From assembly GCA_011046395.1 (NCBI GenBank), contig DSAQ01000171.1, forward strand, positions 1 to 40,233: a DNA stretch of 40,233 nt, given 5' to 3'. Positions 13,622 to 39,739 of this stretch are shown here, piece by piece. The translations under genes and the position numbers were made by a program. This stretch comes from Pseudomonadota bacterium. Lineage in GTDB: Bacteria > Desulfobacterota > QYQD01. Every line of letters begins with the position of its first letter. The first letter of the stretch is position 1. The notes beneath the pieces are model-generated. The model was not told the origin of the DNA. It did not search any database and saw nothing but the letters and a program-made list of their open reading frames with translations.

Positions 13622-15379
13622 TTACCCGAAAACGAAATAAACCAGGGTAAGGAGAAACAGGAATATGGTGGCCACGCCGGCCGATACGCCAATAGGTATC
13701 CTGTACGTATTCACATTATATGGCTCGTTTCGGACAGCCAGATACTTTTCCTTCGGGTCGCCACGGAAGTAGGAAGCAATAAGTCGCCCCGCACGATAAG
13801 GATTTCGGCTGAGAACCGCAGCCCCCTCAACCTCGTTGGTAAGAAAACCCTGCACTCCTGACCGCACTGCATTCAGAGGCTTTTCACAGAACCACAGGAT
13901 AATCCGCCCACCCATTCTGTAAAAGAGGTCAAAGTCGAGGACAATCCCCTTATGCGGCGCGAAATAGTTCTTAGCCACCATAAAGACCAGACCAGAGAGC
14001 AGGAAGAGCTGAATCGTCGCCAGGATATGACCCGGGGTGAAGGTGTGATAGTCAACCGGAACCGGATAAGGCAATAACCCCAGGAGTGGCTGCGGATAAA
14101 CACCCAGGAATACGCAGAGAAAAGCAGTGAGCACCATAGCCACCTGCATGTTCAAAGGCGCCTCTTGGGCTGTGATCTCCTCGTTTTTAGCAAAGAACGC
14201 AAAGTAGCAGAGCTTGACAAAGGAAAGAAAAGTGCCCACCGAGGCCAGGGTCAGCATCAGCTCCAGTATGGGCTTATGATCCGCTGCTGCGGAGGCTATG
14301 ACCATGCCCTTGCTCACAAACCCATTGAAGCCGGGGCCACCGGAAATGGAAAGAGAGGCTATGATACAGGCCACACAGGTAACGGGCATATACTTGGCCA
14401 GTCCGCCCATCTCAGTTAGTTTCCTTTTGCCGGTTACATAGATTACTGAGCCCATGCACATAAATAACAGGCCCTTATAGAGGATGTGGTTAACGACGTG
14501 GGCTATGCCTCCATCCACCCCTAAGGCTGTACCCACTCCCACCCCGGCCACCATGTAGCCCACCTGGCTCATGATGTGGTAGGAGAGAAGCCGCCTGGCG
14601 TCATTTTGGGCCAGGGCGAAGATAACCCCATAGACGGCCATGGCCCCGCCCATATAGGCCACAAAATCTATGTTCGAGAAACATCTGGCCAGGACATAGA
14701 CACCGGTTTTCGTGGTATAGACGCACATGAAGACGCTGCCGGTGATAGTCCCCTGGGGATAGGAATCCGGCAGCCAGGTATGAATGGGAAGAAAGGCGGT
14801 GTTTAGGCCAAAGCCGATCATTATAAGCCAAAACGGCAATTCATGGATAGGGGTTCGTATAGCTATGGACCCGGTCCAGACGGTATGCATGACAATGCCG
14901 GCCAAGAGCAAAGCGCCGCCAAAAAGGTGCATCAGGACATACCTGAAGCCGGCATCAAGGGCCTCTTTTTCCTTGCGGTACCATACCAGGAAGACAGAGG
15001 CGGCGGCCATAATCTCCCAAAAGACGAAGAGGGTAAAGTAATCGCCTGCAAAGACCACACCGAGAGAGCTCCCCACATACATAAGGGCGGCCACATGCTG
15101 TCCCGCCTCCTTCACATGCAGGGAATAGATGATGCCTAAGAATCCTATAATGACAAAGATATAGCCGACGACCAGGCTTAATTTATCAACCCGGGCAAAT
15201 ATCAGTTCAAAGCCCAAAAAGTTGTACACCCAGCTCGTTCCGGCCGGCAGATTTATGATGTCAATTAGGCCTATTACCGGGAGTAAAAGCAAAAAAAGCT
15301 GCCTCAGCCTTCCCTTGAGGATAGGTACCAGCATGGCTCCCAGAATGAATATTATGAAGGGAGGAACCGGATTAGTCAT
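13622..15379 (-). CDS. Antiporter-type subunit (MrpD/NuoL-like), third paralogue
   Basis: A 585-residue multi-pass membrane protein of the proton-conducting antiporter family shared by complex I and Mrp complexes. Landmarks are FVFWEIMAAASVF (TM5 Glu), the LPIHTWLPDSYP loop, and FNGFVSKGM. At the site where most relatives have a channel lysine (V-K-x-x-x-x-P-L-H) this protein has GLNTAFLPIH, that is Asn; a subfamily with this substitution exists in Desulfobacterota, so it is not a mutation unique to this gene. The C-terminus carries an amphipathic stretch and a last TM, as in NuoL-like long forms. Last gene of the cluster; its start overlaps the preceding small gene by 8 bp. Confidence 0.85.
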   Translation of the reverse strand: MTNPVPPFIIFILGAMLVPILKGRLRQLFLLLLPVIGLIDIINLPAGTSWVYNFLGFELIFARVDKLSLVVGYIFVIIGFLGIIYSLHVKEAGQHVAALMYVGSSLGVVFAGDYFTLFVFWEIMAAASVFLVWYRKEKEALDAGFRYVLMHLFGGALLLAGIVMHTVWTGSIAIRTPIHELPFWLIMIGFGLNTAFLPIHTWLPDSYPQGTITGSVFMCVYTTKTGVYVLARCFSNIDFVAYMGGAMAVYGVIFALAQNDARRLLSYHIMSQVGYMVAGVGVGTALGVDGGIAHVVNHILYKGLLFMCMGSVIYVTGKRKLTEMGGLAKYMPVTCVACIIASLSISGGPGFNGFVSKGMVIASAAADHKPILELMLTLASVGTFLSFVKLCYFAFFAKNEEITAQEAPLNMQVAMVLTAFLCVFLGVYPQPLLGLLPYPVPVDYHTFTPGHILATIQLFLLSGLVFMVAKNYFAPHKGIVLDFDLFYRMGGRIILWFCEKPLNAVRSGVQGFLTNEVEGAAVLSRNPYRAGRLIASYFRGDPKEKYLAVRNEPYNVNTYRIPIGVSAGVATIFLFLLTLVYFVFG

Positions 15380-15581
15380 AAAAATCCTCCTTCTTACGGG
15401 CTATGGCCCCTAGCAGTAAGGCCGCACCAAGCAGCAAAATCGCCCCCAGAAACCCAAATATGGCCTCAAATGAGGGTATTTTGTGCCAAAAGTAATGTAC
15501 ATGGTCATGCCCGATAAACAGACCAATCGGGATACTGATCACAACCACAACCAAAAATAATTTCTTTAGCTTTGCTTCCAT
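15372..15581 (-). CDS. Small two-TM protein of the mrp cluster
   Basis: A 69-residue protein with two hydrophobic segments (about 6-24 and 38-60) around a His-rich loop, GHDHVHYFWHK. It overlaps the downstream antiporter gene by 8 bp and begins one base after the upstream gene's stop, so it is translationally coupled and presumably part of the complex. No named family recognised. The histidines could bind a metal or assist proton transfer; that is speculation. Confidence 0.72.
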   Translation of the reverse strand: MEAKLKKLFLVVVVISIPIGLFIGHDHVHYFWHKIPSFEAIFGFLGAILLLGAALLLGAIARKKEDFYD

Positions 15582-15582
15582 A

Positions 15583-17082
15583 TCAGCCTGCTCCTAATCC
15601 TAATATGCTATTTACAGCCAGTGTTGTTATCTTGAAAAAGTGCACGACGGCATCCGGTGCGATCCCCAAACCGACAGATATAATGGCGGTAACCGTAAGC
15701 GGGACGACCATAAACATCGGAGCCTCGTCAAAATGCGGGTTGACATCATCCAAGGGCTTCTTGAAGAAAGCCTTATAAATAATGGGGAAAAAGAAGGCTA
15801 CGTCCAGTAAGGCGCTAAATAAAAGCACTACCAGAAAGACGATCTCCTTAGCCTCTAAGGCCCCCAGACACAGAAACCATTTACTTATGAAGCCATTTAC
15901 CGGCGGAACCCCTGCGAGGCCCATAGCGCCTATAGTAAAGGCGCCGAAGGTAAGCGGCATCTGCCTGCCCAGGCCGTCCAGTTGACTAACATACTCCTTG
16001 TGGGTTTTGACATATATGGCCCCGGCACAGAAAAATAGGGTGATTTTCATAAAACCATGGAAAGCCATATGCAGTATTCCACCGGTAATACTGCTCTTCG
16101 ATAATAAAGCAGCTCCCAAAATCATAATAGAGAGGCAGTTTACCGTCGAAAATGCCAGTCGCCGCTTGAGATGATCCTGCCCTAAAGCCAACAATCCGGC
16201 AGCAAGTATGGTGAAGGAAACAAAATAGGCCAGGGGCAACCACAATTGCAGATCAGTGAGAACCTTGGGACCAAAGACATAGAGGATAACCCGGAGACAC
16301 CCAAAGACGCCGGCCTTCACCACGGCCACGGCATGGAGGAGGGCGCTGACCGGTGTGGGAGCGACCATGGCCGTTGGTAGCCATTCGTGCATGGGCATAA
16401 TACCGGCTTTGACACCAAAACCGAGTATAAGGGTTATCAGGAGCAAGGTCAGCATGGCCGGGGTTCCATGACCGGCCAGAAAGCCGCCCGGTGTAAAGTC
16501 CAGGGTGCCGGTCAGGCTGTAGATCATCGCTGCTGAAAACAGTATCAGAGTACCGCCGGTCAGGGTATAGAGGAGATACTTCCGGCCACCCCTAACGGCC
16601 TCCGTGGTCTCTTTATGAATTACCAGTGGCCAGGTGGAGATAGTAAGAATCTCATAGAAAACAAACAGGGTTAAGAGATTAGCGGAAAAGGCAATGCCGA
16701 TGGCCGAAGACAGACACATGGCAAAGGCAAAAAAATAACGTGTCTGGGCATGCTCATTCAATCCCCTCATGTAGCCTATGGAGTAAAAAGAGGTAGCGAT
16801 CCAGAGGGTGGAAGACAGGAGGGCAAAGACCATACCGAAAGGCTCTACCCTTAATTGCAAAAGGAGGCCGGGGGCTATGGGAAGGATGGTATATTCTATA
16901 ATCTTCCCGTCTAACACTAATGGAACCATCGAAACTACAATAGAAAATTTAATGACTGCAGCCAGAATCGTCCAAAATTCCCGGAGATTCTTTTGCCTTT
17001 CGCCGGTAAGAAGAATCAGCGGGGCAGCAATCAGTGATACCAGAACAGCAAGTAGCGGCTTTATTGAATATACGATTTCCAT
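15583..17082 (-). CDS. mrpD: Antiporter-type subunit (MrpD/NuoN-like), second paralogue
   Basis: A 499-residue, about 14-TM subunit of the Mrp cation/proton antiporter. FVFYEILTISTWPL supplies the TM5 Glu; GFGVKAGIMPMHEWLPTAM the channel lysine and broken-helix region; HAVAVVKAGVFG the second lysine; and PPVNGFISKW the late loop. All charged residues expected for proton translocation are present. Fifteen bases separate it from the preceding antiporter gene. Subunit letter is tentative because three paralogues share this family. Confidence 0.88.
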   Translation of the reverse strand: MEIVYSIKPLLAVLVSLIAAPLILLTGERQKNLREFWTILAAVIKFSIVVSMVPLVLDGKIIEYTILPIAPGLLLQLRVEPFGMVFALLSSTLWIATSFYSIGYMRGLNEHAQTRYFFAFAMCLSSAIGIAFSANLLTLFVFYEILTISTWPLVIHKETTEAVRGGRKYLLYTLTGGTLILFSAAMIYSLTGTLDFTPGGFLAGHGTPAMLTLLLITLILGFGVKAGIMPMHEWLPTAMVAPTPVSALLHAVAVVKAGVFGCLRVILYVFGPKVLTDLQLWLPLAYFVSFTILAAGLLALGQDHLKRRLAFSTVNCLSIMILGAALLSKSSITGGILHMAFHGFMKITLFFCAGAIYVKTHKEYVSQLDGLGRQMPLTFGAFTIGAMGLAGVPPVNGFISKWFLCLGALEAKEIVFLVVLLFSALLDVAFFFPIIYKAFFKKPLDDVNPHFDEAPMFMVVPLTVTAIISVGLGIAPDAVVHFFKITTLAVNSILGLGAG

Positions 17083-17097
17083 CCTGTCTCCTCCCGG

Positions 17098-18597
17098 TTA
17101 AAAGCTTGCCGGAACCGCAAAGCGAATGATAAAGGCGATAATGCGTTCATTAAAGATACCTAACAAGACTACTCCAGCCGCCAGAATAAGGGTGGGGATA
17201 AGCATACTTAAGGGAAGCTCATCCCGCTTTATCTCCTCGTGTGTCCCGCCGTCGGTGGCATAGGCAGTCACCGGAGGTTCAAGATAGGCATTTTCTATAA
17301 TCCGGAAGAAGTAAACGGCGTTGAGCAGACTGCTAATCAACAGGACCACTATAAAGGCCCACTGTCTTGCATCGATCGCGCCCAAGACTAGATAAAACTT
17401 GCTAAAGAACCCACCGGTAGGCGGTATGCCTATCATGGAGAGGGCGGCGATGGTAAAGGTGCCCATGGTAAAGGGCATCTTTTTATGCAGCCCCCGAAAC
17501 TGCGTAATATCCCGCATACCCATTTTGTACATTATTCCACCGGCCACCAAGAACAGGGTCCCTTTCATAAAGGCATGGTTCAAAATGTGCAGTAAGCTAC
17601 CGGTAAGTCCCATCCGGTTGGCCAGCCCGATGCCCAGCACGATATACCCTATGTTCGCTATGGAAGAATAGGCCAGCATCCTTTTCAAATCGGTCTGGGC
17701 AATGGCCAGGATCGAACCGGCGATAATGCCGCCGGCCGCCACCCAGGTCAGTATCTGAGTTATTGGTATCAGGTCTATAGAAAAGTACGGTTTAAACAAC
17801 GTAAAGAAAATCCGGACCATGAGGTAGGCCATAACCTTGGTGAACATGGGGGCGATAACCGCGCTGGTGACAGAAGGCGCATAGGTATATGAATCCGGAA
17901 GCCACACATGCAACGGGAAGAGCCCCATTTTGACAGCGATTCCCACCGTAAACAAGGCAAAGCCAACCAGCACCGCCTTGTTATGATATAGGTTGGGTAG
18001 TAGCTGGGATAAATCAGCCATATTGAGAGAACCAGTTACAATGTACACGTAGCCGATCCCCAGATAGTAAAAACAGGCTCCAACCGTGCCCATGATTACA
18101 TAGTTGAATGCCGCCATAGGCGCCCCGTCTTCACCCACGGCTATGAGGGCATAGGCGGCGAGGGAGGCAATCTCCAGAAACACAAACACGTTAAAGAGGT
18201 CTCCGGTGACCGTAATCCCGATCAGGCCGGCCACAAGGAGGAGAAAGATGCTGTAGTAGGGGACTATCTTTTCAGGAATTTCCTGCTCAATACTCCTTTT
18301 TGAGTAAATAGCTACCACCAAGGCGATGAAAGACAGCATTACCAGCATAAAACCGTTAAGATAATCTACCACGTACTCGATGCCCCACGGTGGTTCCCAG
18401 CCGCCAAAGTGGTAGTGAATAGTCCCCTTGGATATGACAGTATTTAAAATCCCAAGGGAACAGATAAAGGATACAAACAAGGCAGCCAGGGTTAAAGGGT
18501 AACACGCCCACCTCTTGAACCACCCCAGCAAGGCAACTGCGAAAGCAGACATCAGGGGGACAATCACAATCAAAACGGCAAAATGTTCGTAAGTCAT
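17098..18597 (-). CDS. mrpD: Antiporter-type subunit (MrpD-like), first paralogue
   Basis: A 499-residue polytopic membrane protein. The family residues are all visible: FVFLEIASLAAYAL (TM5 Glu), VGIAVKMGLFPLHVWLPDSY (channel Lys), MFTKVMAYL, and PPTGGFFSKFYLV. It starts one base after the end of the subunit C gene, the normal mrpC-mrpD order, so this is the best candidate for the true MrpD. Same length as the next paralogue (15583-17082), which suggests a duplication. Confidence 0.9.
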   Translation of the reverse strand: MTYEHFAVLIVIVPLMSAFAVALLGWFKRWACYPLTLAALFVSFICSLGILNTVISKGTIHYHFGGWEPPWGIEYVVDYLNGFMLVMLSFIALVVAIYSKRSIEQEIPEKIVPYYSIFLLLVAGLIGITVTGDLFNVFVFLEIASLAAYALIAVGEDGAPMAAFNYVIMGTVGACFYYLGIGYVYIVTGSLNMADLSQLLPNLYHNKAVLVGFALFTVGIAVKMGLFPLHVWLPDSYTYAPSVTSAVIAPMFTKVMAYLMVRIFFTLFKPYFSIDLIPITQILTWVAAGGIIAGSILAIAQTDLKRMLAYSSIANIGYIVLGIGLANRMGLTGSLLHILNHAFMKGTLFLVAGGIMYKMGMRDITQFRGLHKKMPFTMGTFTIAALSMIGIPPTGGFFSKFYLVLGAIDARQWAFIVVLLISSLLNAVYFFRIIENAYLEPPVTAYATDGGTHEEIKRDELPLSMLIPTLILAAGVVLLGIFNERIIAFIIRFAVPASF

Positions 18598-18598
18598 C

Positions 18599-18985
18599 TT
18601 AGACTCCAGATTTTTTGCGAATTTCTAAAATCTCGTCCTCGGCCAGGGTCTTATACCGGTTATAAACCATGATTATTATGCCCAGGGCCACTCCGGTGGT
18701 TGCGATACCCACCACGATGGCCGTAAGCATCAGGACATGGGGCAGTGGGTTCATGTAGTGAAGTGGATTGGCTGATCCGTGGAGATCCTCCGCTGTAAGT
18801 ATGGGTATGGAGGCCCCAACCTTAGACCCGATGGAAATGTAGAAGAGTATTATTGCCACCTGAAAGATGTTCATACCAATAAGCTTTTTTACCAGATTCT
18901 TCTTCCCGATCATGCCGTAAAGACCAAGCATCATCAGAAAGATATAAACCCAGTAATTATATTTACTGACAATGTACTCAAACAT
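18599..18985 (-). CDS. mrpC: Mrp subunit C (NuoK-like)
   Basis: A 128-residue protein with three hydrophobic segments and the family pattern GLYGMIGKKNLVKKLIGMNIFQ in the first loop, then LPHVLMLTAIVVGIATTGVALGI. NuoK-like subunit that sits between antiporter modules. The start overlaps the preceding gene by 8 bp; the downstream antiporter follows after one base. Confidence 0.9.
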   Translation of the reverse strand: MFEYIVSKYNYWVYIFLMMLGLYGMIGKKNLVKKLIGMNIFQVAIILFYISIGSKVGASIPILTAEDLHGSANPLHYMNPLPHVLMLTAIVVGIATTGVALGIIIMVYNRYKTLAEDEILEIRKKSGV

Positions 18986-19271
18986 TGCTTTCTCCCTCGC
19001 CCCTCTTTTTCTTCCGTAACATCAGGATACAGGCCATCCCTGCCGTAAAGATAACCGTAGTCTCCCCCATGGTGTCATAGCCCCTATAGTCGGCCACTAC
19101 GGAAGTGACTATATTGGGTGTGCCCGCCTCTATATACGTGCCCTGTGTATACCGGGGGGCAACATGGACGCTGCCTGGCTGATTCGGGTCGCCCCACTTG
19201 GGAAAATCCTCTGCCCCGTATACGAGCATGACACCGGTTATGATTACCGTGAGCAAAGCAAACACTTTCAA
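18978..19271 (-). CDS. MbhE-like subunit
   Basis: A 97-residue protein with an N-terminal TM, a polar periplasmic stretch and the conserved segment NIVTSVVADYRGYDTMGE followed by a second TM. This segment is typical of MbhE and of the matching part of MrpA/MrpB. It replaces one piece of the long MrpA C-terminus found in single-gene Mrp systems. Overlaps its neighbours by 4 and 8 bp. Confidence 0.85.
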   Translation of the reverse strand: MKVFALLTVIITGVMLVYGAEDFPKWGDPNQPGSVHVAPRYTQGTYIEAGTPNIVTSVVADYRGYDTMGETTVIFTAGMACILMLRKKKRGEGESNV

Positions 19272-19513
19272 TCTTTCGACCTCCTTTTGGTCTTATGGAC
19301 TGCGGCGATAAACAGGACGGTGCCCACACCAGCCCCCACGCAGGCCTCGGTAAAGGCCACATCCACCGCCCCCATCTCGGTATAAATCAGGCACATGAAG
19401 AAGCTGAAGGATCCAAGGATAATCGTAGCACCCAAGAGATCTTTTATCTGCAAAGCCGCAATGCCGGTTATAACCACAAAAAGAAGTAGTATGAGATCCA
19501 GTGGCAGTATCAT
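19268..19513 (-). CDS. MbhD/DUF4040-like subunit
   Basis: An 81-residue, three-TM protein of the NuoJ-related DUF4040/MbhD family, with the characteristic MGAVDVAFTEACVGAGVGTVLF. In classical MrpA this sequence forms part of the C-terminal extension; here it is a separate gene, overlapping mrpG and the MbhE-like gene by 4 bp each. Confidence 0.88.
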   Translation of the reverse strand: MILPLDLILLLFVVITGIAALQIKDLLGATIILGSFSFFMCLIYTEMGAVDVAFTEACVGAGVGTVLFIAAVHKTKRRSKD

Positions 19514-19872
19514 TCCTTCTCCACCTCCTTAAACTGATGCTCCAGAGTCCAGGGTTTTACACCGCACCGGAAAGCGGCGCGCGTTATGGCATGGGTAGAT
19601 ACGGGACCGGCCAGAAACCAAAATATGGCGATGAAAATGATCTTAATGCTCACGAGAATACTGGCAGTCGAAAATCCACCGCTGAATGCAGTATAGATAG
19701 CCAGGCCAATAAGTGATAAAAGCACGGCGAGGGTATCACCCTTACCAGTAGCATGCATCCGGCAGAAAAAGTCAGGCAGACGTAATAGCCCTACGGTTCC
19801 TCCTGTGAAGAAAAGCAGACCTAACAGAAGAAAAACTGCCGTCAGTATCGATCCTATGGTCAAGGTGGTCAT
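19510..19872 (-). CDS. mrpG: Mrp subunit G
   Basis: A 120-residue, three-TM protein with the MnhG/MrpG signature GTVGLLRLPDFFCRMHATGKGDTL (split here by description: GLLRLPDF and HATGKGDT). Essential accessory subunit of Mrp complexes. Two bases separate it from mrpF upstream, and it overlaps the MbhD-like gene by 4 bp. Confidence 0.92.
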   Translation of the reverse strand: MTTLTIGSILTAVFLLLGLLFFTGGTVGLLRLPDFFCRMHATGKGDTLAVLLSLIGLAIYTAFSGGFSTASILVSIKIIFIAIFWFLAGPVSTHAITRAAFRCGVKPWTLEHQFKEVEKE

Positions 19873-19874
19873 TA

Positions 19875-20150
19875 TTACACTTCCCCCCTCATCTCAAAAT
19901 ACTTGGCCGCGGCCAAGGTGCCGATAAAGTTCAAGAGGGCGTAAACTATGCTGATATCCACAAACATATCCACCCGGTCGTATATGAAACCCATAAGGAG
20001 CAAAACAATCAGCGTCTTGGTCCCGATAGCACCGACGCCCACTATCCGGTTAGTAATAAATGGCCCCAAGATAGCCCGGTAGAGGCAAAGTAATACCAGA
20101 AAGCTTAAAGCGATGCTCACACCCATAAAGAATTGCTGCATATTAACCAT
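19875..20150 (-). CDS. mrpF: Mrp subunit F
   Basis: A 91-residue, three-TM protein with the MnhF pattern YRAILGPFITNRIVGVGAIG and DMFVDISIVYALLNFIGTLA. Follows the degraded activator gene after 33 bp. Confidence 0.92.
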   Translation of the reverse strand: MVNMQQFFMGVSIALSFLVLLCLYRAILGPFITNRIVGVGAIGTKTLIVLLLMGFIYDRVDMFVDISIVYALLNFIGTLAAAKYFEMRGEV

Positions 20151-20183
20151 AGCGATACTCCATAGAATGCTTTTTTGTGCCTA

Positions 20184-21143
20184 TCATGACCCTCTGACAA
20201 CTGAAGAAGGACTACCCGCCAGATTGTATTTTTTTAACTTCGCATAAAGCGTGCTTCGGCTGATCTTGAGTCTCTTGGCTACCTGGAGTTTATTCCAGTT
20301 TTCCTCCCGCAACATCTTCAACAGAAATCTTTTTTCATTGTCTTCGAATGAGACTATTCCCTCTCCCTCTTCTCTGGTCACTTCATTACGCAGTCTGGGA
20401 ATGAGATCGTCCTGGTCAATCAACTCGTCTTGAGTCGTGAGGTAAGCATATTGGACAGTGTTCTCCAGCTCCTTGACATTACCAGGCCAGGAGTAATCCA
20501 TTAAGAACCGCATGGCCTTCGGAGTAATCTTTTTGGTAACCCCTTTATTCTCAGCGGATAACCGCTCCATAAAATATTCAACCCAGAAAGGTATGTCTTC
20601 TTTTCTCTGTCTCAGGGGCGAGATATATATATTTATGATGCTGAGCCGGTAGTACAGTTCTTCATTAAACGTACCCTTCTCCACTTCCTCTTTTAGATCC
20701 TTATCCGCAGCCGTTATCATGCGTACGTTTACTCTAATCTTGCCCCCGCCACCGGGCCTTTCAAATTCCATCGCTTCCAAAAATTTTAGAAGTCTGACCT
20801 GAGATAAAGGGAGTACCTCGTCAATATCGTTTAAGAAGACTGTGCCGCCATCAGCTCTTTCAAGTCGCCCCTTTTTGTGATGCCTGGCGCCCTTAGCAGT
20901 ACCCTTTTCATAGCCGAAGAGTTCATTTTCCAGTAAAGACCGGGGATAAGCTGAACAATTAATCACCACAAACGGTTTGTCTCTCCGGGAACTATGTCCA
21001 TGTATGGACTCAGCCACCCATTCCTTCTCTGTCCCATTTTCCCCCTGGATCAGGACGGTAACATCCGTAGGCGCAAGATTTAAGATCATGTTATAGACTT
21101 GCTGCATTTTTATAGATTGTTTCTCGATGTCTTCGATATCCAA
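20184..21143 (-). CDS. Degenerate sigma-54 activator (AAA-Fis) inside the mrp operon
   Basis: About 319 residues: an AAA+ domain of the sigma-54 activator type followed by a Fis helix-turn-helix, no receiver domain. Every key motif is altered while the fold-defining sequence stays aligned: Walker A GENGTEKE (for GESGTGKE), the sigma-54 loop GTAKGA (for GAFTGA), Walker B VFLNDI (for IFLDEI), sensor I TAADKD (for ATNKE), FNEELYYRL (for FREDLYYRL) and GNVKEL (for GNVREL). It cannot be expected to hydrolyse ATP or contact sigma-54. The DNA-binding end ([20 protein letters not shown]) is intact. Closest relative in the window is the intact activator 28912-30789, suggesting duplication and loss. 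Start chosen at TTG 21143 after AGGAAGGG; a GTG at 21227 inside mrpB lacks an RBS. Confidence 0.85.
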   Translation of the reverse strand: MDIEDIEKQSIKMQQVYNMILNLAPTDVTVLIQGENGTEKEWVAESIHGHSSRRDKPFVVINCSAYPRSLLENELFGYEKGTAKGARHHKKGRLERADGGTVFLNDIDEVLPLSQVRLLKFLEAMEFERPGGGGKIRVNVRMITAADKDLKEEVEKGTFNEELYYRLSIINIYISPLRQRKEDIPFWVEYFMERLSAENKGVTKKITPKAMRFLMDYSWPGNVKELENTVQYAYLTTQDELIDQDDLIPRLRNEVTREEGEGIVSFEDNEKRFLLKMLREENWNKLQVAKRLKISRSTLYAKLKKYNLAGSPSSVVRGS

Positions 21144-21201
21144 TCTGCCCTTCCTATGCCTTTTCTTTCTTTGCCTGGTTATATTTATACCTGTATATTT
21201 A

Positions 21202-21654
21202 TTACTCCCGTTCAGGGGGCAATCCACCGGTGGAAATATCGTAGACTAAAGAGGTCATAACAGCCATGACTCCGAAGCCAACGCCTGTCTCCACAAAAAG
21301 GATGCCCAAGGCCCTGGCCTTAGCCACAGTCACCGGGAAAACCTTTACTAACTGACTGTAGTCCAGAAAGTTTCCGCCCAGGGCCAGGCAGAGGGCCCCG
21401 GTCCCGGAATAGATCAACAACCCCAGGCAGAGAAATATGATGTCAGCCTTTTCGGACAACCGCCTCCTGGCCGTATCCAGCCCGAAAGAAATGACCATAA
21501 GGATAAAACTGGCTGCCAGTATAACGCCCCCCTGGAATCCGCCCCCCGGGCTGTAGTGCCCATGGGCAATAACATAGAGGGCATAGAGCTGTAAAAACGG
21601 CGCCAGCACCCTGGTAAGGGTCTTTATAATTATATCCTCGTAGGTTATTATCAT
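21202..21654 (-). CDS. mrpB: Mrp subunit B
   Basis: A 150-residue, four-TM protein of the MnhB family with LYALYVIAHGHYSPGGGFQGGV near the N-terminus, a highly conserved loop, and FVETGVGFGVMAVM near the C-terminus. Standard Mrp subunit. Its 3' end is followed by the degraded activator gene rather than mrpC as in classical operons. Confidence 0.93.
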   Translation of the reverse strand: MIITYEDIIIKTLTRVLAPFLQLYALYVIAHGHYSPGGGFQGGVILAASFILMVISFGLDTARRRLSEKADIIFLCLGLLIYSGTGALCLALGGNFLDYSQLVKVFPVTVAKARALGILFVETGVGFGVMAVMTSLVYDISTGGLPPERE

Positions 21655-35946: not shown

Positions 35947-36279
35947 ATGCGGCAATATCTGATTGATGAACTGGATAAAAGACAAATCGAACAGATTGCG
36001 GGATACCTCAAGGAACATGCCCAGCCGTCCTCTGTAGAAGGTCTGTTCTGGATTGACCTCCCGGATGATCTGCTGGCTGAGACACAATACACCCATAAAA
36101 ATTGCAAGCCTTTTTGTTTCTCTATTGAGGTTGGAGAGGATTGCGTCAAGCTAGAATTTCTCATACGCAGCAAGCAGACTCTTCACTGCGACTGCATCCA
36201 ATATGCCAGTAAGGCACAAAGGGATTTTATCCTGGAATTTGCGGAAAAAATGCTGTCAGAAAAAGGCATAAGGACATAA
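35947..36279 (+). CDS. Conserved hypothetical protein at head of Mla locus
   Basis: A 110-residue soluble protein of unknown function, predicted alpha/beta: helix MRQYLIDELDKRQIEQIAGYL, a central strand region with ETQYTHKNCKPFCFSIEVG, and CDCIQYASKAQRDFILEFAEKML at the end. Six cysteines, two as CDC; no full metal motif. Five bases separate it from the permease gene, so it is the first gene of the putative mla operon. RBS-like GAGAGG. Confidence 0.75.
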   Translation: MRQYLIDELDKRQIEQIAGYLKEHAQPSSVEGLFWIDLPDDLLAETQYTHKNCKPFCFSIEVGEDCVKLEFLIRSKQTLHCDCIQYASKAQRDFILEFAEKMLSEKGIRT

Positions 36280-37116: not shown

Positions 37117-37890
37117 ATGGCCGCAATTCGCCTCCACATAAATGATGTATGGTATAAAGATAACGGGAAAAACATACTGCAGGGGGTTAACCTGTCCGTA
37201 CCATATGGCGAAGGGATAGGTCTCTGTGACCCAACCGGCCTGTCCGGCGCTGAGTTGCTCCAGATATGCGCTACTTTGCTGGAACCAACGCAGGGAGAAA
37301 TCCACCTGGATGGGATACCCGTACCTTTTGACCGGGAAATAGACCTTCTTTCCCTGCGCCGAAAGATTGCTTATGTAGCCGAGGATACGGCCCTAATAAG
37401 CAATCTCACCTTATTACAAAACGTATCCCTGGGATGGGCCTACTACGAAAACAGATCACTGCATGATGTTTGGGAAGAAGGGGAAAGGCTCTTAACCTAT
37501 TTCCAGGTCAATGACTATAAAGACCTGCATCCCACAGAGGTTAATGCGGAGATATTTAAACGCGCAGTATGCGCCCGGGAGCTGGCCAAAAAACCTATCC
37601 TGATACTACTGGACAGAATAATCGATACCCTTTCTACAGAAGGACAGACCCTGCTTATATCCTATGTAGGAAAATGCCTGCAGGAGATGGGCAGCTCCCT
37701 GCTGGTCGCCTCCACAAGCGCTGCCTCATTCGCCTCCCTGTCCGCACTCATTAGTCGCTCATATACCCTGGAAGAGGGGAGGCTGGCCGGAGAAAATCCC
37801 GCCTGCGGCCGTCCGGGTCCCGCACAAGAACGTACGCCGCCAGGCCTGACTCAGGGAGGAACAGCATCCGATCATGGAAATGAAGTTTAG
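37117..37890 (+). CDS. Catalytically degraded MlaF-like ABC ATPase
   Basis: A 257-residue protein in the mlaF position. The ABC fold is recognisable (ILQGVNLSVPYGEGIGL, LLEPTQGEIHLDG, RRKIAYV, ARELAKKPILILLD) but every ATP-handling motif is lost: Walker A reads DPTGLSGAE (no Lys), the Q-loop Gln is Glu (AYVAED), the signature LSGGQ is VNAEI, and Walker B LLDEP is LLDRI (catalytic Glu replaced by Arg). The frame is open and codon use ordinary, so it is not a fresh pseudogene. The C-terminal 35 residues are Pro/Gly-rich and overlap mlaD by 17 bp. It may have become a structural partner of MlaE, with ATPase activity supplied elsewhere. Confidence 0.85.
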   Translation: MAAIRLHINDVWYKDNGKNILQGVNLSVPYGEGIGLCDPTGLSGAELLQICATLLEPTQGEIHLDGIPVPFDREIDLLSLRRKIAYVAEDTALISNLTLLQNVSLGWAYYENRSLHDVWEEGERLLTYFQVNDYKDLHPTEVNAEIFKRAVCARELAKKPILILLDRIIDTLSTEGQTLLISYVGKCLQEMGSSLLVASTSAASFASLSALISRSYTLEEGRLAGENPACGRPGPAQERTPPGLTQGGTASDHGNEV

Positions 37891-38791: not shown

Positions 38792-39739
38792 ATGCGCCGC
38801 TATCTCCTGATAATAATCTGCATGCTGCTAATGTTATCCGGCCTCCCAGGTTGTGCAGGCGCGCCGCCGAAACCTATAGAATTAGAAAAAGAAAGGGCGT
38901 TGGATTATGCTAATAAGGGAGTACTGTGGTTTAAAAAAGGTTGTTACAGCCGGGCCCTGTCCTTATTTGAAAATTCCTTGCGAATTAATCAGTCCATAGA
39001 CAACCTTCCCGGTATGGCTTATGATTATAACAATATCGGCATGATAGCCCTGAATACCGACAAGCTCAATGAGGCCGGAGAATTTTTTACCCTGGCCGCC
39101 CGCATTCAGCGTAATCTGGATAACGAAGCGGGGCTGTCTCTCAGTCTCAGCAATCTGGCTACGGTTGACCTGAAGGCAGAAAATCCAGACCAGGCCGAAA
39201 GACATCTGGAAGAGGCTTATCAGGCGGCAAGCCGAGGTAAGGATAAACTCCAGCAGGCCCTTGTCCTAAATCTTAGGGGACACCTATATTGGCAAAAAGG
39301 TCTTCTTCCCATGGCGAATGATTCTGTATCGAAAGCCATAGCCATCTATGAAGCCGGGGATAATAAAGCCGGGATGGCTTCAGCCTGCCATAATCTGGGC
39401 CTTATACGCATGTCTGAGGGAAATTATATGGAGGCCCAAACCCTATGGGCAAAGGCCCTGGAACTTGACCAGGAAAACCTCGATTATCCCGGTATGGCTG
39501 CTGATCTGGAGATGCTGGCCAGGTTAACCCTAAAACAGGAAAGGTGGCCTGAGGCCGCCGAATACGCCTGGAGGGCCTTCAACGTCTGTTATAATATCGG
39601 ACACAAGGAAAAGGCCTCGCTTGTGCTTGAAATACTAAAAAAGGCCGATGAAGCCGGAAATCTCAAATCTCCTATAGCCGATCTTGAAGAAAAACTTAAA
39701 GAGATGTCATCTCCTGATTTTGATCTGCCCTGCCGATAG
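38792..39739 (+). CDS. TPR-repeat lipoprotein
   Basis: 315 residues. Signal peptide with lipobox LSGLPGC (Cys21), so a lipoprotein, then about six tetratricopeptide repeats (for example YDYNNIGMIALNTDKLNEA, LNLRGHLYWQKGLLPMA, CHNLGLIRMSEGNYMEA). TPR proteins mediate protein interactions. It begins at the base after the mlaD stop and likely provides an outer-membrane or periplasmic partner of the lipid transporter, taking the place of MlaA or MlaC, neither of which is in the window. Confidence 0.85.
   Translation: MRRYLLIIICMLLMLSGLPGCAGAPPKPIELEKERALDYANKGVLWFKKGCYSRALSLFENSLRINQSIDNLPGMAYDYNNIGMIALNTDKLNEAGEFFTLAARIQRNLDNEAGLSLSLSNLATVDLKAENPDQAERHLEEAYQAASRGKDKLQQALVLNLRGHLYWQKGLLPMANDSVSKAIAIYEAGDNKAGMASACHNLGLIRMSEGNYMEAQTLWAKALELDQENLDYPGMAADLEMLARLTLKQERWPEAAEYAWRAFNVCYNIGHKEKASLVLEILKKADEAGNLKSPIADLEEKLKEMSSPDFDLPCR

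Follow-up and report, generated by a model that had tools for sequence, protein, structure and literature searches.

What does an ABC protein that has lost its ATP site do in the place of the MlaF ATPase? The question is raised by a gene lying between an mlaE-like and an mce (mlaD-like) gene in the window, by which we mean the whole stretch of 40,233 nucleotides analysed here. According to a first-pass annotation, the transporter must rely on a borrowed ATPase, pair this protein with an active partner in a heterodimer, or do without ATP. We compared the gene, its product (pseudo-F) and its operon with relatives and with described lipid transporters, and we find that the ATP-free option fits best.

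Composition of the operon

The pseudo-F reading frame is open and is coupled to both neighbours, as first annotated: it starts 7 bases past the mlaE stop codon, and its 3' end overlaps the start of the mce gene by 17 bases (Table 1). The MlaE protein belongs to the family by the Pfam model and scores under the TIGR00056 cut-off (146.8 versus 212.2 bits); it is 94–96% identical in four congeneric genomes. The MCE protein, likewise a member of its family by Pfam, consists of one transmembrane helix, one MCE domain and about 140 residues of long helices. In its AlphaFold2 model the transmembrane helix and the MCE domain are confident to about residue 140, and the long helices beyond are of low confidence. 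The TPR lipoprotein encoded next is a likely partner of the MlaE/pseudo-F/MCE operon.

Table 1. Features of the mlaE–pseudo-F–mce operon (for replacements, the E. coli MlaF residue is given first and the pseudo-F residue second)
Feature	Position	Strand	Basis or remark
mlaE-like permease, 274 aa	36285..37109	+	Pfam MlaE PF02405, 190.7 bits (cut-off 22.5)
Pseudo-ATPase (pseudo-F), MlaF position, 257 aa, ATG start	37117..37890	+	Pfam ABC_tran
Walker A remnant DPTGLSGAELLQ, residues 38-49	37228..37263	+	Lys47 to Gly44; contact position 52 is Gln49 (alignments)
Q-loop position	37381..37383	+	Gln92 to Glu89 (alignments)
Docking segment, residues 91-112 (TALISN...N...Y), past the Q-loop	37387..37452	+	Published MlaF contacts Leu96, Tyr108, Glu112 (PMC7784689)
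Signature position: VNAEI (residues 142-146), replacing LSGGM	37540..37554	+	Alignments
Arg154-Glu155	37576..37581	+	MlaF Arg157 (MlaE contact) and the clade-specific Ala158-to-Glu (alignment)
Walker B end	37612..37617	+	Asp166 kept; catalytic Glu170 to Arg167 (alignments)
H-loop position	37714..37716	+	His203 to Thr200 (alignments)
MCE (MlaD-like) protein, 305 aa	37874..38791	+	Pfam MlaD PF02470, 49 bits (cut-off 25.1)
TPR protein, lipoprotein-like signal GLPGC	38792..39739	+	Pfam TPR_12, 90.7 bits

Upstream of mlaE, a 110-aa ORF (35947-36279) is kept in the four congeneric genomes and has no Pfam or NCBIfam match. Elsewhere in the window, on the reverse strand, we noted by eye a type IV prepilin-like ORF (151-525) and a cluster of antiporter/NADH-dehydrogenase-like membrane proteins resembling Mrp (13622-21654). 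An NtrC-type activator ORF (20184-21227, reverse strand) appears, also by eye, to have an altered Walker A (GENGTEKE) and an altered GAFTGA-like loop (GTAKGA), and is possibly another dead P-loop protein.

Loss of the ATP site

Pseudo-F has the fold and family membership of an ABC nucleotide-binding domain (NBD). It matches Pfam ABC_tran at 38.7 bits (cut-off 25), and its PDB matches are NBDs (best 1.9e–18), the best ones displayed being ABC ATPases. AlphaFold2, run on an alignment of 50 proteins from the window and its relatives, predicts a confident NBD (mean pLDDT 91.0, pTM 0.85). This model aligns with E. coli MlaF (6xgz_A) in VIA-align with Z 28.0 and an rmsd of 2.3 over 226 residues, the best Z being 28.8; since many ABC domains tie in Z (Foldseek/VIA), the fold alone cannot single out MlaF. 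Against the MlaF equivalog model NCBIfam NF008809, pseudo-F reaches 49.6 bits, under the curated cut-off of 441.

We scored five catalytic residues, numbered as in E. coli MlaF (row L143 of the alignment): the Walker A Lys, Q-loop Gln, signature Gly, Walker B Glu and H-loop His. All five are replaced in the window and in four congeneric genomes (G001-G004), and pseudo-F does not qualify as a functional ABC ATPase. In the signature, Ser146 and Gly148 have become Asn143 and Glu145. Alignment to E. coli MlaF bears out the first-pass reading that the Walker A Lys, the Q-loop Gln, the signature and the Walker B Glu are gone. Its phrase 'without any catalytic motif' holds for the five residues but is slightly too strong, because the Walker B Asp166 is retained. 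The pseudo-F proteins of the four congeneric genomes are 87–95% identical to that of the window and carry the same residues at every catalytic site, which excludes chance or sequencing error.

Distribution of the dead form among relatives

Relatives were sampled by comparing the window MlaE with 395 genomes of the phylum, and a profile of 23 relatives with named genomes, most of them metagenome-assembled. From 336 relatives, the named-genome set keeps the 80 that scored as most like the window MlaE, so that the clade of the window (clade P) is over-represented. With identical sequences counted once, the mlaE-linked F proteins gave 102 pairs (7 canonical, 58 of clade P and 37 other), of which 101 entered the MlaE tree. 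The trees are quick searches with SH-aLRT support only and have some long end branches, L009 foremost and, in the F tree, the window genus.

Operons of the window's type form one subfamily in the MlaE tree, 94 of 101 rows set apart from the 7 canonical rows (SH-aLRT 100), with members in Desulfobacterota, Bdellovibrionota and others. Clade P comprises 58 of the 101 rows, on one side of a branch with SH-aLRT 95.4, and every F protein in it is dead. The F tree, of 52 rows with other ABC proteins as the root, joins the ten P rows that were sampled (SH-aLRT 97) and places the F proteins of the subfamily beside canonical MlaF, outside it. Clade P includes Desulfobacterales, Desulfobacteraceae, Syntrophobacterales and Syntrophaceae. 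Two of its members are isolates, Desulfosarcina alkanivorans PL12 (complete chromosome) and Desulfobotulus alkaliphilus ASO4-4; in Thermodesulfobacteriota bacterium Yes70-07 the MlaE is 96% identical to that of the window.

Within clade P, Lys47 is retained in 0/58 rows, Gln92 in 2/58, Gly148 in 3/57, Glu170 in 0/57 and His203 in 4/57; none of the five residues is kept in 50 of 58 rows, one in 7 and two in a single row. The pattern GK/R-S/T near the P-loop was found in none of the 58 rows. Instead, Asp stands at position 42 in 39/58 and at position 46 in 33/58, and such acidic P-loop residues should repel phosphate. The most parsimonious history on the tree needs 5 changes at the Walker A Lys, 3 at the H-loop His and 2 at position 158, where Ala-to-Glu is specific to the clade. 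Thus the degenerate form sought in relatives recurs in 58 loci, and the dead protein at the MlaF position is a clade-wide feature, not a one-off. No description of a pseudo-ATPase in the MlaF position was found in the titles and abstract starts of the papers listed from one open-access library.

The E-F-D gene order is present in 65 of 78 loci, the window being counted twice (as itself and as L003); the count is lowered by a few loci in which longer antisense ORFs displaced F or D when ORFs were picked (L072, L108, L129). A TPR homologue is the next listed plus-strand gene past E-F-D in 26 of the 78 loci, and such homologues trail E-F-D both inside clade P and outside it. We also considered loss of F in relatives. 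No F was matched at L081, L090, L094 and L114 among the 80 named loci, nor at L055 and L062 among the others. Three of these loci end near mlaE (L081, L090, L114), the mlaE of L062 is at a contig edge, and in L094 part of the sequence past mlaE is masked or undetermined; given these contig ends and this stretch, we do not count a true absence.

Graded loss in sister clades

The 37 subfamily rows outside clade P are partly degraded and graded in their loss of the ATP site. Fifteen of them (e.g. L010, L011, L047, L048), scattered and not forming a single clade, keep the Walker A Lys (15/15) and Q-loop Gln (15/15), with the Walker B Glu in 9/13 and the H-loop His in 0/13. Ten more (L050 and others) have the Lys in 7 and the Glu in none. 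The remaining twelve, nine from Bdellovibrio-type bacteria, have the Lys in 7, the Gln in none and the His in 0/11. The H-loop His is absent in all sister clades. In L010 a nearly intact ATPase occupies the F position of an operon with unchanged gene order.

Taken with the F tree, these graded rows make the operon F look like an MlaF lineage whose chemistry was lost stepwise. The H-loop His would have gone early in the subfamily, and the remaining losses would fall at the base of one clade. In a genome labelled as Elusimicrobia (L113) we observed the same operon type with the Walker A Lys kept and the H-loop His lost; either the range of the subfamily extends past Desulfobacterota and Bdellovibrionota, or this is a transfer or a mixed bin.

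Selection on the pseudo-ATPase

Pseudo-F is held under purifying selection. Its frame is open in five congeneric genomes, and over residues 1-225 dN/dS is 0.17–0.35, about 0.2 (10 congeneric pairs), alongside 0.04–0.19 for mlaE and 0.13–0.25 for the mce gene in the genus. Fifteen other clade P pairs gave 0.13–0.44, on stop-to-stop frames that include some upstream bases. The C-terminal tail past residue 226 is variable and unconserved, and the only stop in a congener (G001) falls near residue 229, beyond the domain. Across clade P, pseudo-F evolves faster than MlaE (mean identity 0.34 versus 0.48), which indicates that constraint is relaxed across much of pseudo-F. In one pair of genomes (G000-G003) dS is 0.216 for mlaE and 0.065 for pseudo-F, perhaps through recombination inside the operon.

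Could pseudo-F nonetheless be a pseudogene on its way out? Simple decay had been expected to appear as relatives with an intact ATPase at this place together with stops in this copy. That combination did not occur: the window copy has no stop. One half of it is found, in that relatives at the same place do have a nearly intact ATPase, less the H-loop His (L010, L011, L047, L048). Against decay, five species have an open frame with dN/dS near 0.2, and 58 loci from many lineages share the dead form, with the E-F-D order kept. We give decay almost no credence and reject it on the open frames and the dN/dS of both the genus pairs and the other P pairs.

The putative docking face on MlaE

In the published account of E. 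coli Mla (PMC7784689), the coupling helix of MlaE contacts MlaF through Glu127, Gln128, Ser131, Met135 and Arg142, and the MlaF side contributes Arg52, Leu96, Tyr108, Glu112 and Arg157. These MlaF positions are largely kept in clade P. Arg157 is present in 57/57 rows, position 96 is L/M/F in 57/58, and position 52 is K/R in 50/58 (Gln in the window); Asn105, near the MlaE contacts in sequence, is found in 58/58. The neighbouring Ala158 has become Glu in 56/57 clade P rows and in 0/43 of the other rows with a letter there.

Both sides of the interface have also changed together. On MlaE, Glu127 is replaced in 95/95 and Gln128 is Glu in 92/95 subfamily rows; on the F side, position 112 has Tyr instead of Glu in 37/37 rows outside clade P and in 55/58 rows within it. 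Leu occupies MlaE position 110 in 58/58 P rows and in no other row. Contacts are not all held, as MlaE position 135 is variable in clade P. An ATP site that is lost while the docking face is kept and jointly changed is what one would predict for a docked pseudo-enzyme, and we infer that pseudo-F docks on its own MlaE.

Other ATPases in the genome

A second mlaF-like gene, whose presence the first-pass annotation had suggested looking for, does exist. The genome of the window has two MlaE genes, the second adjoining an intact mlaF and an MCE gene (an mlaE-mlaF-mlaD operon). Each of the two isolates likewise carries a pair of MlaE genes, and the best MlaF in each adjoins the canonical MlaE. Judged by ABC scores, no spare mlaF besides the canonical one was seen in the own genome (41 ABC matches; the canonical MlaF matches itself at 530 bits, and the next-best protein reaches 133) or in the two isolates (best versus next match 231 versus 156 and 228 versus 167 bits).

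With an intact MlaF encoded in the same genome, as in the two isolates, this MlaE could in principle use a canonical MlaF from elsewhere, pseudo-F then modulating or competing with it. We consider such borrowing improbable. The changes at Glu127 and Gln128 in the MlaE of the subfamily have a counterpart in the F protein of the same operon (Glu112 to Tyr) but none in canonical MlaF; moreover, pseudo-F is kept by purifying selection, and no spare mlaF was seen in the own genome or in the two isolates.

Asymmetric ABC transporters, in which one of the two sites is degenerate, are a familiar type, and by their example pseudo-F might pair with an active ATPase in a heterodimer with one working site. 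An ABC site draws its Walker A, Walker B, Q-loop and H-loop from one subunit and its signature from the partner subunit. Pseudo-F has lost both its Walker A and its signature, so that both composite sites would lack a half, and no whole site would arise in a homodimer or in a mixed dimer with canonical MlaF. With both half-sites gone, the heterodimer is very improbable and we reject it.

Possible mode of transport

According to a review of the E. coli Mla system (PMC10212509), nucleotide-free MlaE is open towards MlaD, transfer from MlaD to MlaC is spontaneous, and ATP hydrolysis blocks outward flow. If so, a motor unable to hydrolyse ATP would leave the outward path unblocked. We think it probable that the operon encodes a conserved pseudo-ATPase that docks on its own MlaE and, together with a long MCE protein, makes up a lipid conduit independent of ATP. 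Pseudo-F would fold and dock on the MlaE coupling helix without the usual ATP binding or hydrolysis, as the replaced residues suggest, and would hold the MlaE dimer in the nucleotide-free state open towards the MCE protein, or regulate access to that state. MlaE, pseudo-F and the long MCE protein, often with the TPR outer-membrane lipoprotein, would then form a lipid conduit across the periplasm. Flow would by default be outward, down a gradient; this direction, like the substrate, is drawn by analogy. A bolder statement, that a whole clade of ABC-type lipid transporters gave up ATP for a docked, ATP-repelling pseudo-ATPase and a permanently open lipid bridge whose default direction is from the inner to the outer membrane, with sister clades intermediate, seems to us possible but short of an even chance.

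The same fold, docking-position and selection data would also suit a docked regulatory subunit, a scaffold or sensor, with transport driven or gated from elsewhere: by the proton motive force, by a partner in the periplasm or outer membrane, or by a ligand that binds the dead site. The TPR lipoprotein is a frequent partner, and the source consulted (PMC10897342) leaves three options open for PqiA, which likewise has no ATPase: a passive mode, an unidentified ATPase or the proton motive force. However, besides the genes for MlaE, pseudo-F, the MCE protein and the TPR protein, the operon showed no conserved gene for energy coupling, and the neighbours further out differ among lineages. We regard this reading as rather unlikely.

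Comparison with known lipid transport systems

The operon resembles E. coli Mla (MlaFEDB) in having an MlaE permease, an ABC subunit of MlaF fold and an MCE protein in one operon, with recognisable contacts between subunits. It differs in the missing ATP site and in its gene content: its ORF list holds no mlaB or mlaC, and no MlaA was seen in the operon either. Having neither an active MlaF nor MlaB and MlaC in the operon, it is not a complete Mla system of E. coli type. Its MCE protein, with a long helical part, has 305 residues, whereas E. coli MlaD is given as 183 (PMC10665443). The MlaEFD system of Veillonella parvula is described as having the same three-gene E-F-D core, no MlaA or MlaC and a long MlaD, but its MlaF is said to resemble closely that of model diderms, while ours is dead (PMC10665443). 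The Mla-Pqi chimeric system (Mpc) of Brucella likewise has MlaE and MlaF homologues, a long MCE protein and a lipoprotein; however, MpcF is described as the ABC ATPase of a well-conserved transporter, the lipoprotein is PqiC-like rather than TPR, and MpcE has a STAS domain (PMC12436622).

PqiABC and LetAB provide MCE conduits without an ATPase (PMC12436622, PMC10897342), and the operon perhaps works like them. It is not a member of the Pqi/Let group, in which the inner-membrane part is PqiA or LetA and there is no NBD-like subunit; here the membrane protein is MlaE. Mycobacterial Mce systems are a further case, known for MlaE-type permeases and MCE proteins with the ATPase MceG encoded outside the permease operon. 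They share this dedicated, active ATPase and are not known to have a pseudo-ATPase in its place.

Implications

Pseudo-F would be a case of an ABC transporter in which both ATP sites, not one, are gone and the protein is nevertheless kept by selection. A homology-based ATPase label can mislead in this family, as 39 of 50 aligned F members still match ABC_tran at E 0.001. The energy need and the direction of lipid transport by Mla and MCE systems are disputed. An Mla-like machine whose motor is dead but kept, with graded sister systems, amounts to an evolutionary experiment on both.
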